Shown: in pieces, positions 29,739-40,918 of the stretch
How positions within the stretch are numbered: position 1 is the first letter of the stretch
How the letters are laid out: each line of letters opens with the position of its first letter
NCBI RefSeq assembly: GCF_000506985.1
Contig: NZ_KI650982.1
Coordinates: 186,001-250,000, forward strand
DNA from: Advenella kashmirensis W13003
Lineage (GTDB): Bacteria; Pseudomonadota; Gammaproteobacteria; Burkholderiales; Burkholderiaceae_B
Direction of reading: 5' to 3'
Length of the DNA stretch: 64,000 bases
Notes under the pieces: generated by a model
Told to the model about the DNA's origin: nothing
The model's database searches: none
The model's input: only the letters and a program-made list of their open reading frames with translations
Made by a program: the position numbers and the translations under genes

Positions 29739-30722
29739 TTGATCAAATCAGCCACATTCATGTATACCGCAGCCATCGCAACATTCATGGCAGGCGGTAT
29801 GCAGCCAGCCCAGGCCATGTCCGAAGCTGCAAAAAACTTCCCCGACAAACCTATCACAATCGTCATCGGCTATACCGCTGGCGGCTCAACGGACATTCCC
29901 TTTCGGGTCCTGGCCGAGAATCTGACCGGCATTTTCAAGCAGCCGGTTATCGTTGAAAACAAACCCGGCGCCGGCGGCGTGCTGCCGGCCATGCAGTTGC
30001 ACAACAAAAAACCCGATGGTTACACACTTGCACAAACGCCAACTCCCGTTTTTCGCCTGCCATATATCAGCAAGATCGACTGGAATCCGGCCACCGACCT
30101 GACCTACGTGATCGGCCTTGCCGGCTATTCGTTCGGACTGGTGGTGCCCGCGGACTCGCCCATCAAGTCAATGAAAGAATATATCGACTTCGCCAGGAAA
30201 AATCCCGAGAAGCTGACCTACGGGACGCCCGGTATCATGACCACGCTGCATATCACCATGGAGGCCATTGCCCAGGACGCCGGCATCAAACTGGTGCACG
30301 TTCCCTACAAGGGCAACGCGGAATCACTCAAAGCCATTATTGGCGGCTTTGTCATGTCGGTGGCTGACACGCCCGCGTGGGCGCCCTATGTCGAAAACGG
30401 GAAACTGCGCCTGCTGTCTACCTGGGGGGAAAAACGCAGTAAAAAATTTCCGGATGCCCCCACGCTCAAGGAATCGGGTATCGATCGGGTCCAACTGTCT
30501 CCATTTGGACTGGCCGTCCCCAAAGACACCGATCCGGATATTGTCAAAAAACTGCATGACGGACTCAAACAGGCCATGGAAAAACCCAACTTCCGGGAAG
30601 CATTGGAAAAATACGATATGGAACCCTTGTATATGAGTACGCAGCAATACACTGAGTTTGCCAAAAACACCACCGCTGACGAAGGCAAGGTACTGGAATC
30701 CCTGGGGTTCCAGAAAAAATAG
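29739..30722 (+). CDS. Bug-family (TctC-like) periplasmic solute-binding protein
   Basis: A 327-residue secreted binding protein of the tripartite tricarboxylate transporter receptor family. A signal peptide ends near AQA at residue 26. The Bug ligand-binding core follows: ITIVIGYTAGGSTDIPFRVLAENLTGIFKQPVIVENKPGAGG, then VPYKGNAESLKAIIGGFVMSVADTP. No TctA or TctB membrane genes are nearby, which is common for orphan Bug proteins. Its position after the acyl-CoA genes suggests it captures the carboxylate that the operon degrades. The ligand is unknown. Confidence 0.9.
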   Translation: MIKSATFMYTAAIATFMAGGMQPAQAMSEAAKNFPDKPITIVIGYTAGGSTDIPFRVLAENLTGIFKQPVIVENKPGAGGVLPAMQLHNKKPDGYTLAQTPTPVFRLPYISKIDWNPATDLTYVIGLAGYSFGLVVPADSPIKSMKEYIDFARKNPEKLTYGTPGIMTTLHITMEAIAQDAGIKLVHVPYKGNAESLKAIIGGFVMSVADTPAWAPYVENGKLRLLSTWGEKRSKKFPDAPTLKESGIDRVQLSPFGLAVPKDTDPDIVKKLHDGLKQAMEKPNFREALEKYDMEPLYMSTQQYTEFAKNTTADEGKVLESLGFQKK

Positions 30723-31817: not shown

Positions 31818-32777
31818 ATGAAAACAAAAGGGACATCTCTTCTGGCGCTGTCTGTCATCGCTGCTCTTGTGACCCCCATGGCAGCACAGGCTGCCTGGCC
31901 GGATAAACCCATCAAGGTCATTGTTCCGTATACGCCGGGGGGCGCCACCGACACAGTGACTCGTGTCGTGATGCAAAAACTGTCCGAAAAACTCAAGCAG
32001 CCGATTGTGATTGAAAACAAGCCAGGCGCAAACAGCACGATCGGTACAAGCCAGGCGGCGCGCTCCAAGCCCGATGGCTACACTTTCGTCACAGTCCTGG
32101 CCGCCTATTCCGCCAATCCCCATCTGTACAAGCTGAACTACAGCAACAGCGATTTCGTGCCTGTGTCGCATATTGCCGACCTGCCGCTCTTCCTGTTTGT
32201 CAGTAAACAAGTACCTGCCAATAACGTCAAGGAACTGGTCGAGTATGGCAAGAAGAACCACCTGACGTATGCCTCCAGCGGCACAGGCTCCAGCGCGCAT
32301 CTGACCGGCGCCCACTTTGCCGGCGAAGCAGGAATCGAAATGACGCATGTGCCGTACAAAGGCAGCGCGCCCATTCTGGCCGACCTGCTCAGCGGCCAGG
32401 TGTCCATGGTCTTTGATCCCATTCTGGTTCCCATGGGCTATGTCAAAGAAGGCAAACTCAAAGCCCTGGCCATTACGTCCGCCAAACGCTGGGAAGGGGA
32501 AGACGACATCCCCACCATGGAGGAAGCCGGTTTTAAAGGTTTTGTCATGAACTCCTGGACCTCGCTGCTGGCGCCCAAAGGCACACCGCAGGACATTGTT
32601 GACCGGGTTTCGACTGAGATTGCGCAAATCGTGCAGGAGCCCGATGTGAAAGAGAAATTCAAAACGGCCGGCTTTGTACCCGTGGGAGGCTCTGCTGCGG
32701 AGCTGGGCGAATTGATCAAGCGCGACTCGGAACTGTATGAAAAAATCATCAAGGACAACAATATCACCGTGCAATAA
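31818..32777 (+). CDS. Bug-family (TctC-like) periplasmic solute-binding protein
   Basis: A 319-residue binding protein. The signal peptide ends at MAAQA (residue 25). The mature protein shows the Bug signature IKVIVPYTPGGATDTVTRVVMQKLSEKLKQPIVIENKPGANSTIG, then YASSGTGSSAHLTGAHFAGEAGIEMTHVPYKGSAPILADLLSGQVSMVFD. It stands alone between a terminator and the riboswitch-controlled dadA, with no partner permease in the window. The ligand is likely a carboxylate but is not known. Confidence 0.92.
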   Translation: MKTKGTSLLALSVIAALVTPMAAQAAWPDKPIKVIVPYTPGGATDTVTRVVMQKLSEKLKQPIVIENKPGANSTIGTSQAARSKPDGYTFVTVLAAYSANPHLYKLNYSNSDFVPVSHIADLPLFLFVSKQVPANNVKELVEYGKKNHLTYASSGTGSSAHLTGAHFAGEAGIEMTHVPYKGSAPILADLLSGQVSMVFDPILVPMGYVKEGKLKALAITSAKRWEGEDDIPTMEEAGFKGFVMNSWTSLLAPKGTPQDIVDRVSTEIAQIVQEPDVKEKFKTAGFVPVGGSAAELGELIKRDSELYEKIIKDNNITVQ

Positions 32778-32827
32778 TCTTCAGCATGCGAGGGCATTGA
32801 GCTCACCGGCATCGGGTAAGTCCCTAG

Positions 32828-32855
32828 TTGCGCTTCTGTCGCAGACGACTATCAT
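32828..32855 (+). promoter_or_regulatory. Candidate promoter for the riboswitch-dadA transcript
   Basis: TTGCGC (32828-32833), a 16-base spacer, then TATCAT (32850-32855). Transcription would begin about 10-15 bases before the first glycine aptamer. Confidence 0.45.
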
Positions 32856-32874
32856 ACCCGGTGTCGACAAGCGC

Positions 32875-33041
32875 TTTTGCAGGAGAGTTCAGCCCTGCTG
32901 ACGCCGACGGAGCAACCACCCCGGAAACTCTCAGGCAAAAGGACTGTAAAAAGGCGCGACAATCTGGAGAGAGGCGCATGCGCCCACCGAAGGGGAACCG
33001 GTTCGACTGAACCGGTGAAGCTCTCAGGTACCGTGACAGAT
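32875..33041 (+). promoter_or_regulatory. Tandem glycine riboswitch
   Basis: Two adjacent glycine aptamers. Aptamer 1 (32875-32951) has P1 arms TTTTGCAG and CTGTAAAA, GGAGAG at 32882, and the conserved CTCTCAGGCAAAAGGAC. Aptamer 2 (32962-33041) has P1 arms ATCTG and CAGAT, GGAGAG at 32966, CCACCGAAGGGG, and CTCTCAGGTACCGTGACAGA. These words are the family consensus. It ends 46 bases before the dadA start. Such RNAs usually activate glycine-catabolism genes when glycine is abundant. Confidence 0.95.
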
Positions 33042-33046
33042 GGGGT

Positions 33047-33068
33047 ATGCAGATCAGCTGATCTGCAT
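33047..33068 (+). promoter_or_regulatory. Perfect 22-bp palindrome between riboswitch and dadA start
   Basis: The halves ATGCAGATCAG and CTGATCTGCAT are exact complements. In RNA this is a stable hairpin 9 bases before the dadA Shine-Dalgarno. It is a candidate expression platform, though an intrinsic-terminator T run is absent. As DNA it could also be an operator. Confidence 0.55.
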
Positions 33069-33087
33069 CACTCTATCGGAGATATTC

Positions 33088-34353
33088 ATGTCACGCGTCG
33101 TTATCATCGGAGCCGGCATCACCGGCATTACCACCGCCTATACGCTTGCAAAACGCGGCTATGCCGTCACGGTCATCGACAAACACCGGGATGCCGCTAT
33201 GGAAACCTCGTTTGCCAATGGCGGACAGCTGTCGGCCAGCAATGCAGAGGTCTGGAACAATACCGCCACCGTGGCCAAAGGTCTGCGCTGGTTGGGCAAG
33301 CGCAACGCTCCGCTGTTATTCAACCCGGCTTTCAGCTGGCACAAATATGGGTGGATCGCCGCCTTTGTCCGGAACATTCCCAATCACCAAGCCAACACCA
33401 TCGAAACCACGCGACTGGCCATCGAAGCACGCCAGTATCTTTACGATATGGCCGAGAAAGAACAGATCCAGTTCGATCTGGAAAAGCGCGGCATTCTGCA
33501 CATTTACTATGACCGAGACAGCTTTGACAAGGCCGTCAAAACCAACGCACTGTTGCAGGCTGGTGGCCTGGAACGCTATGCCGTCACGCGCGAAGAAGCC
33601 AAAGCCATTGAACCGGCATTGACCCAGGATTTTTTTGCCGGTCTGTATACGCCGTCCGATGCCACCGGCGATATCCACAAATTCACCAGCGGTCTGGCGG
33701 CGGCATGCCGGCGGCTGGGCGGGCGGTTTGAAATGGATGCGTCCGTCACAGCAATTTCAACAGCAGGACAGCAACACCGGATTGCCCTGGCGCGTTACGC
33801 CCATGCCGAACCTGGTGTGATAGAAGCCGACCAGATCGTTGTGTGCGCCGGCACCGGCAGTCATGCCATTGCGCGCATGCTGGGCGACCGCATGAACGTG
33901 TATCCGGTCAAAGGCTATTCCATCAGCGTTCACCTGGATGACGCGGATAGCCTTGCCGCAACACCGCGCGTCAGCCTGCTGGATGAAGATGCCAAAATCG
34001 TCACCAGTTTTCTGGGCGATCGGTTCCGGGTTGCAGGCACAGCGGAATTCAACGGCTACAACAAAGACATTCGCGCCGACCGGGTGCAGCCGCTGGTCGA
34101 CTGGACCCGGCGCCTGTTTCCTGATATTTCTACGCGACGCGTCGTGCCTTGGTGCGGCCTGCGCCCGATGATGCCCGATATGATGCCGCGGGTGTGCCGG
34201 GGTCGCAAAGCTGGTGTCTTCTATAACACCGGGCACGGACACCTGGGCTGGACTTTGTCTGCGATTACGGCGCAACGACTGGCCCGGTTGCTGGAAGAAT
34301 CGTCGCAGCGCTCCACGTTGCAGAAAAGTTCATCCCAATCAGCGGTTGCCTAA
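33088..34353 (+). CDS. dadA: D-amino-acid dehydrogenase / glycine oxidase-like FAD enzyme
   Basis: Membrane-linked flavoprotein that oxidises D-amino acids, or glycine, to the oxo acid and ammonium. The 421-residue product from [24 protein letters not shown] has the FAD-binding GxGxxG motif near the start, the [20 protein letters not shown] segment typical of DadA, and the C-terminal [17 protein letters not shown]...[17 protein letters not shown] (33078-33081) fixes the start; an in-frame ATG at 33040 lies inside the aptamer and lacks such a site. A tandem glycine riboswitch controls it. The stop overlaps the convergent gltL-like stop by three bases. Glycine as substrate is inferred. Confidence 0.9.
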
Positions 34354-39928: not shown

Positions 39929-40918
39929 TCAGTTAAGTGAGATATTCGCGGTTTTGATCACCTCGGCCCACTTCTGGGTTTCACTCTGGATAAACTTGGC
40001 AAAGTCTTCAGGCGTGCCGCCAGCGGACTGGCCACCCGTGCTATCAAACGCTTTTTGCACTTCAGGCTTTTTCAGAATATTGTTGAACGCGGTGTTCAGT
40101 TTGCTGATGATGGGTTCGGGTGTGCCGGCCGGGGCAATAACGCCCTGCCAGTTATACGACTCGAAATTTTTCAGGCCGGCTTCCTGCATGGTAGGCACGT
40201 CGGGCAACAGCGGCAGGCGCTTGCTGCTGGTCACGGCCAGCGGATGCACTTTTTTCGCATCAATCGCCGGCATGGCGGCATAGCCCATTTCAAACATCAT
40301 ATCGATATGGCCCGCCATCAAATCACTGCCTGCCGGTGCACCGCCCTTGTAGGGCACATGCGTGAGTTTCAATCCTGCCTCAGACGCAAACAATTCGCCT
40401 GACAGGTGATGAGCACCGCCCACGCCAGACGAACCGAAAGTCAGCTTGCCCGGCTCCTTTTTCGCCTGGTCGATCAACTCCTGAAGGCTCTTGACCGGCA
40501 GTTTATTGCTGACACTCAGGATCAGGGGGCTTTCCTCGATCAGAATCACAGGCGCCAAATCTTTTTTAACATCATATTTGACATTTTTGGGCATCAGCGT
40601 CGGATTGACGGACAGCGGCGCCAGATTGCCGCTGCCGATCGTATAGCCATCAGGCTTGGCCTTGGCAATAAACTCGGTGCCGATAATGCCACCCGCGCCG
40701 GCCTTATTTTCGACCACGATGCTTGTTTTGAGTTCGTCGGCCAGTTCACGCGCCAGCAGGCGCATGCGGGTATCGGCAAATCCACCGGCGGCATAAGGAA
40801 CGATAAAGGTGATAGGTTTGGACGGCCAGTTGTCCTGCGCTGCAGCCGGGGCAGACAATGCCACCATGCCGCTTGCGCCCAAGACGGCGCATAAGGTCAT
40901 TTTTTTGACGAATTGCAT
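39929..40918 (-). CDS. Bug-family (TctC-like) periplasmic solute-binding protein
   Basis: A 329-residue binding protein, the third Bug protein of the window. The signal peptide ends near APAAAQ (about residue 28). Core motifs are ITFIVPYAAGGFADTRMRLLARELADELKTSIVVENKAGAGGIIGTEFIAKAKPDGYTIG and LTHVPYKGGAPAGSDLMAGHIDMMFEM. It follows the aminotransferase gene by 33 bases on the same strand, so the two may be co-transcribed. No TctA or TctB genes are present. The ligand is unknown. Confidence 0.92.
   Translation of the reverse strand: MQFVKKMTLCAVLGASGMVALSAPAAAQDNWPSKPITFIVPYAAGGFADTRMRLLARELADELKTSIVVENKAGAGGIIGTEFIAKAKPDGYTIGSGNLAPLSVNPTLMPKNVKYDVKKDLAPVILIEESPLILSVSNKLPVKSLQELIDQAKKEPGKLTFGSSGVGGAHHLSGELFASEAGLKLTHVPYKGGAPAGSDLMAGHIDMMFEMGYAAMPAIDAKKVHPLAVTSSKRLPLLPDVPTMQEAGLKNFESYNWQGVIAPAGTPEPIISKLNTAFNNILKKPEVQKAFDSTGGQSAGGTPEDFAKFIQSETQKWAEVIKTANISLN

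Follow-up and report, generated by a model that had tools for sequence, protein, structure and literature searches.

A tandem glycine riboswitch paired with PRK12409 flavoenzyme genes in alpha- and betaproteobacteria: a candidate switch for glycine oxidation

The window analysed here, a stretch of 64,000 nucleotides from Advenella kashmirensis W13003 (contig NZ_KI650982.1, positions 186,001 to 250,000), carries a tandem glycine riboswitch directly ahead of a gene for a flavin adenine dinucleotide (FAD)-dependent amino acid dehydrogenase of the PRK12409 family. This pairing of riboswitch and gene is a conserved unit, and it is widespread in alpha- and betaproteobacteria, which the original prediction, made from the letters of this stretch, had missed. 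The riboswitch association is an addition of the present analysis to what is recorded for the PRK12409 family. On balance, we lean toward a reading in which the tandem works at the level of translation as an ON switch and controls a stand-alone dehydrogenase that would use a flavin to oxidise glycine and would act beside or instead of the glycine cleavage system.

The riboswitch at the Advenella locus

The original prediction placed a tandem glycine riboswitch in front of a DadA-like gene rather than gcv genes and proposed a covariance-model search as a check. This search bore it out, since both aptamers match RF00504 above the gathering cut-off of 32 bits, aptamer 1 with 66.7 bits (E 1.1e-11) and aptamer 2, which overlaps it by 3 nt, with 55.4 bits (E 1.9e-10; contig positions 218954-219049, a window coordinate being the contig coordinate minus 186000). 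Whole-Rfam scans listed only aptamer 1 and dropped one lower-scoring overlapping match, which we take to be aptamer 2. The P1 stem read in aptamer 2 is also present, its ATCTG and CAGAT strands being complementary (Table 1). The RNA at 32870-33049 is an ordinary member of this known riboswitch class; in its paired aptamers, its core words and its GACAGA-GGG type linker it matches the tandem riboswitch of gcvTHP operons. In contrast to gcvTHP-type tandems, which precede a glycine cleavage operon or a transporter, the tandem in the window precedes a lone flavoenzyme gene.

The reports consulted link glycine riboswitches to genes for glycine cleavage, for transport and for serine, besides a few more (PMC2211319, PMC3766115, PMC12452182, PMC5666159, PMC4710047, PMC12827605, PMC5760752, PMC12593503, PMC6944388). 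No description of the pairing with PRK12409, or of the gcvP-less set of DadA-clade genes presented below, was found in the portions of the literature covered by our search; such a gene may be among those given in supplementary tables (e.g. Sun 2013, Additional file 5).

Conservation of the riboswitch-PRK12409 pairing

Among 61 related genomes, 44 have glycine riboswitches, at 57 sites in all, and the genes 3' of these sites are PRK12409 (16), other DadA-like genes (4), gcv genes (31), UPF0126/TRIC-like genes (5) and an AGCS-like symporter gene (1); the gcv, UPF0126/TRIC-like and AGCS-like names were read from the sequence by eye rather than by family scan. All 16 PRK12409 genes above the family cut-off in this sample sit behind a tandem. 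A class sample of 369 genomes added seven PRK12409 genomes, five of them with the riboswitch; in the remaining two, one leader ends at a contig edge and the other belongs to a 1.2 Mb genome whose gene (518 bits) lacks the riboswitch. The single new case in an order sample of 90 genomes has the riboswitch, as do 9 of 10 PRK12409 genes in a sample of 81 genomes of the order around Bradyrhizobium; the tenth, a split match of 502 bits, comes from a genome of 1.3 Mb. Pooled over these whole-genome samples, a glycine riboswitch stands ahead of 31 of the 33 readable PRK12409 genes (34 in all), the Rfam cut-off being reached in some of the 31 by one of the two aptamers only.

Named loci were compared as well; these are the 80 best among 590 relatives (58 to 82% identity), and five of them lie on contigs of the relatives sample (L113 and L208 are one locus). 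Both core words occur within 500 nt in 80/80, and RF00504 is present in all 20 loci scanned. At DadA-like loci below the family cut-off, a core word was seen in 4 of 54 readable leaders (56 loci). Neighbours could be parsed at 68 of the 80 loci; no gene family recurs next to most of them, and the biggest clusters of neighbours spanning genera hold 12 and 9 mechanically called open reading frames (ORFs). Riboswitch and gene are thus retained as a unit in differing neighbourhoods. In the tree, the riboswitch-linked clade has a support of 0.50 alone and 0.99 when two riboswitch-less sisters are included; midpoint rooting of this tree is affected by one misread row (L197), and the tree omits three rows truncated by contig ends.

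PRK12409-like genes without a glycine riboswitch were seen in genomes of 0.9 to 1.3 Mb (L175 in G236, L176 in G091 and L232 in G555), and in the tree L175 and L176 are placed next to the riboswitch-linked clade (support 0.96 and 0.50), L176 being under the family cut-off. At another locus (L049 in G007), the gene has an apparent one-base frameshift near codon 36 relative to its relatives and the riboswitch is intact, which could mean gene decay or a mistake in the assembly.

The downstream enzyme and its likely substrate

The enzyme scores 678.3 bits against the NCBIfam model PRK12409 (NF009074; curated cut-off 494) and 245.6 bits against the DAO superfamily model PF01266 (gathering cut-off 27.9), but falls short of the curated cut-offs for DadA (PRK00711, NF001933; 339.9 bits against 383) and ThiO (TIGR02352; 150.1 bits against 250.8). 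Thus the label "dadA" was right in pointing to a DadA-like flavoprotein and loose as a name, for the family is PRK12409. We take ATG 33088 as the start, because it follows the GGAGA ribosome-binding site and falls in the same start column as in 14 other proteins of the alignment; a longer ORF from ATG 33040 would begin within the riboswitch.

Although the family is named "D-amino acid dehydrogenase", a name that carries no link to glycine, the near-universal presence of a glycine riboswitch ahead of its genes, together with the gcvP-less DadA-clade set below, strengthens a connection between enzyme and glycine. In the reading that we favour, the enzyme would oxidise glycine to glyoxylate and ammonia, and the electrons would probably go to the respiratory chain. 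Both by sequence and by fold, ThiO glycine oxidase is the nearest enzyme of solved structure; unlike in the ThiO setting, no thiamine gene was found among the nine neighbouring ORFs scanned. DadA of Escherichia coli belongs to the same superfamily and shares the motif frame GHGxLGWT, but a His replaces its Thr (GHG-H-LGW) in 94 of 94 riboswitch-linked proteins, a residue also present in some proteins without a riboswitch. Several points count against glycine as the substrate: by sequence family the enzyme is nearer to DadA (340 bits) than to ThiO (150 bits), proline dehydrogenase and sarcosine oxidases have the same fold at similar Z, and the structure model has low confidence in the active-site loops.

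The enzyme could also be one that makes glycine, with sarcosine or some other N-substituted glycine as a possible precursor, and glycine would then repress it as end product. However, the sarcosine oxidase beta model soxB gives a low score of 40.6 bits on this enzyme, and no pathway genes recur across most of the parsed loci, so that we regard a glycine-producing role as very unlikely.

DadA-clade genes behind glycine riboswitches and the loss of gcvP

Glycine riboswitches also stand ahead of a set of DadA-clade genes, four in the relatives (G020, G021, G047, G052) and four in the order sample (G428, G449, G461, G476). gcvP is absent from the first four genomes; it was then checked in the new four and is absent from all of them. 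Eight of eight genomes without gcvP compare with 37 of 125 overall (hypergeometric 3.3e-5; 0.0048 for the new order sample alone), probabilities that overstate the evidence because the genomes are partly related (G047 and G461 are of one genus). All eight proteins carry the motif GHGTLGWTH, whose last position is M, L, E or N in most other proteins compared, including E. coli DadA; a relative without the riboswitch (L051) also has H there. The leaders of four DadA-clade loci (L199, L200, L201 and L202) lack the core word CTCTCAGG in aptamer 1, where CGCTCAGG or a similar word stands, and keep CTCTCAGG in aptamer 2; L202 also shows a terminator-like hairpin by eye.

The same comparison limits what can be said of PRK12409. 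gcvP is present in the window genome and in 27 of 35 PRK12409 genomes tested. A tie between gcvP loss and PRK12409 itself is not supported; nor does replacement of glycine cleavage hold for this family. The eight genomes without gcvP include G236, also without the riboswitch, and G030, which is 75% complete. When all riboswitch-linked DadA-type genes of the first sample are taken together, their association with loss of gcvP does not reach significance (p 0.38), which weighs against the favoured reading. The window genome has a second tandem ahead of an ORF read as gcvT, with gcvP further downstream, so that in this genome the enzyme would work as a further route and would not replace glycine cleavage. 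In the favoured reading, PRK12409 would be an addition to the glycine cleavage system and its DadA-clade analogue a replacement for it.

A general D-amino acid dehydrogenase, switched on by glycine merely because glycine signals that amino acids or peptides are plentiful, would agree with the annotation of the family. Among the genes read, however, the riboswitch association is limited to PRK12409 and one DadA subgroup with a distinct motif, and does not extend to DadA generally, which makes this explanation quite unlikely. A cytochrome-linked glycine dehydrogenase activity (EC 1.4.2.1) was described long ago in Nitrobacter. A broader and more tentative proposal, which we hold to be possible but would not yet back, is that PRK12409 and the GHGTLGWTH subgroup of DadA are two lineages of riboswitch-controlled respiratory glycine dehydrogenases, that the second substitutes for glycine cleavage in bacteria without that system, and that PRK12409 could be the missing Nitrobacter gene.

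The leader hairpin and the predicted switch

Leaders were compared in a set of 95 (the 80 named loci and 15 others, leaving aside G007, which is frameshifted, as well as G465 and the Bradyrhizobium-order genomes). In 76 of them, aptamer 2 is followed by GACAGATGGGG, then by a hairpin and then by the ribosome-binding site. Among the 27 Alcaligenaceae-type leaders, 17 share the register of a hairpin with a 4-nt loop and a 9-bp stem, in which 8 or 9 positions pair although the letters vary; the other 10 have fewer than 8 of 9 pairs in the fixed register, and some of these fold in a shifted one. The arms of one leader average 6.9 of 9 pairs, compared with 4.8 for arms taken from different species. 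The exact palindrome of the window is one version of a 9-bp hairpin whose pairing is kept through letter changes. As for its proposed role as expression platform, the leader hairpin is conserved and the palindromy itself is incidental. Neither a sigma-70-like promoter nor a terminator-like site was found in 32600-33200. An intrinsic terminator was rejected for the window palindrome, which has no T run, and a conserved DNA operator is disfavoured, the letters varying while the pairing stays.

In the proposed mechanism, when glycine is absent, the P1 3' strand of aptamer 2 and the GGGG after it would pair across the hairpin with bases around the ribosome-binding site, and in Advenella a neighbouring stretch could additionally cover the start codon; when glycine is bound, P1 would close with its own 5' strand and free the ribosome-binding site. 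Of 43 dereplicated leaders, 38 have GGA, and 20 of these 38 carry the word CTGGA at the ribosome-binding site, compared with 10 of 195 GGA-bearing ORFs of the same loci, a control of mechanical ORF calls many of which are perhaps not genes. CTGGA repeats the P1 5' strand (ATCTG-GAGAG), so it can pair with CAGA of the P1 3' strand, and this repeat of a P1 strand at the ribosome-binding region, seen in roughly every second leader, speaks for an ON switch that acts on translation. In the window, the helix of GATGGGG with CTCTATC (duplex -8.0 kcal/mol) is seen in the free fold, as is the pairing of CGTGACA with TGTCACG; of the 95 leaders, five contain both of the latter words, and these five are Advenella-type. 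The fold of 33018-33100 has a z of -3.5 against shuffles.

Other observations on the leaders weigh against this mechanism. CTGGA is missing from 23 of 43 dereplicated leaders, among them the window leader, which reads ATCGGAGA, and the alternative helix of the window is ordinary, 15% of shuffles being as good (0.153). Of 600 combinations of arms across species, 84 also attain 8 of 9 pairs. The duplex test gave p<0.05 in just 12 of 95 leaders, P1 being mislocated in some, and ensemble modelling of 94 of the 95, again with some P1 strands mislocated, gave no consistent gain in the accessibility of the ribosome site, which changed by more than 0.1 upward in 31 and downward in 17. We infer the ON direction with moderate confidence, as a prediction from the leader sequences.

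Glycine competes with D-alanine in the cell wall and is toxic through its replacement of D-alanine. An OFF switch could thus spare D-alanine, if the enzyme degraded D-alanine or other D-amino acids and high glycine shut it off. The DadA score of 340 bits fits such an enzyme, and the modelled accessibility, which moved both ways, is compatible with either direction. Against this stand the P1-strand repeat at the ribosome-binding site, which fits an ON switch better, the further DadA-like paralogues of the window genome (272 bits and lower) and the DadA-clade link with gcvP loss, which points toward glycine removal. Taken together, we consider a D-alanine-sparing OFF switch unlikely.

Other features of the window and of related loci

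Table 1. Leader elements, the PRK12409 gene and neighbouring genes in the window
Feature	Position	Strand	Remark
Aptamer 1 (RF00504)	32870-32956	+	
Aptamer 2 (RF00504)	32954-33049	+	
P1 5' strand of aptamer 2, ATCTG	32962-32966	+	complementary to 33037-33041
CGTGACA	33032-33038	+	7-nt perfect complement of TGTCACG 33089-33095 across the start codon; overlaps aptamer 2 core and P1
P1 3' strand of aptamer 2, CAGAT	33037-33041	+	GGGG 33042-33045 comes next
GATGGGG	33039-33045	+	can pair with CTCTATC 33071-33077 (7 bp), immediately 5' of the ribosome-binding site; predicted glycine-free helix
22-nt palindrome, exact ATGCAGATCAGCTGATCTGCAT	33047-33068	+	hairpin, 9-bp stem and 4-nt loop
Ribosome-binding site GGAGA	33078-33082	+	
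PRK12409 family FAD-dependent amino acid dehydrogenase	33088-34353	+	421 aa; NF009074, PF01266 DAO
Binding-protein-like gene	29739-30722	+	
Binding-protein-like gene	31818-32777	+	
Binding-protein-like gene	39929-40918	-	

The three binding-protein-like genes fall in an 11-kb part of the window. Their products are presumably periplasmic binding proteins of the Bug type (tripartite tricarboxylate); scans of two of them had no match in NCBIfam. In related genomes, glycine riboswitch pairs also stand ahead of UPF0126/TRIC-like membrane proteins, named by eye (L029, L024, L065, L028 and L081, in five genomes, four of them of the window's genus), and an nhaA-I RNA (RF03057, 46.2 bits) was found near one PRK12409 locus (L169:145-208).

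Significance

The presence of the pairing across many related bacteria suggests an unrecognised bacterial route for disposing of excess glycine. Being near-obligate in two proteobacterial classes, the link to this uncharacterised oxidising enzyme would widen the set of functions under glycine riboswitches, and for a family whose name rests on similarity it would predict a substrate. It would also help explain how glycine is handled in some bacteria without glycine cleavage.
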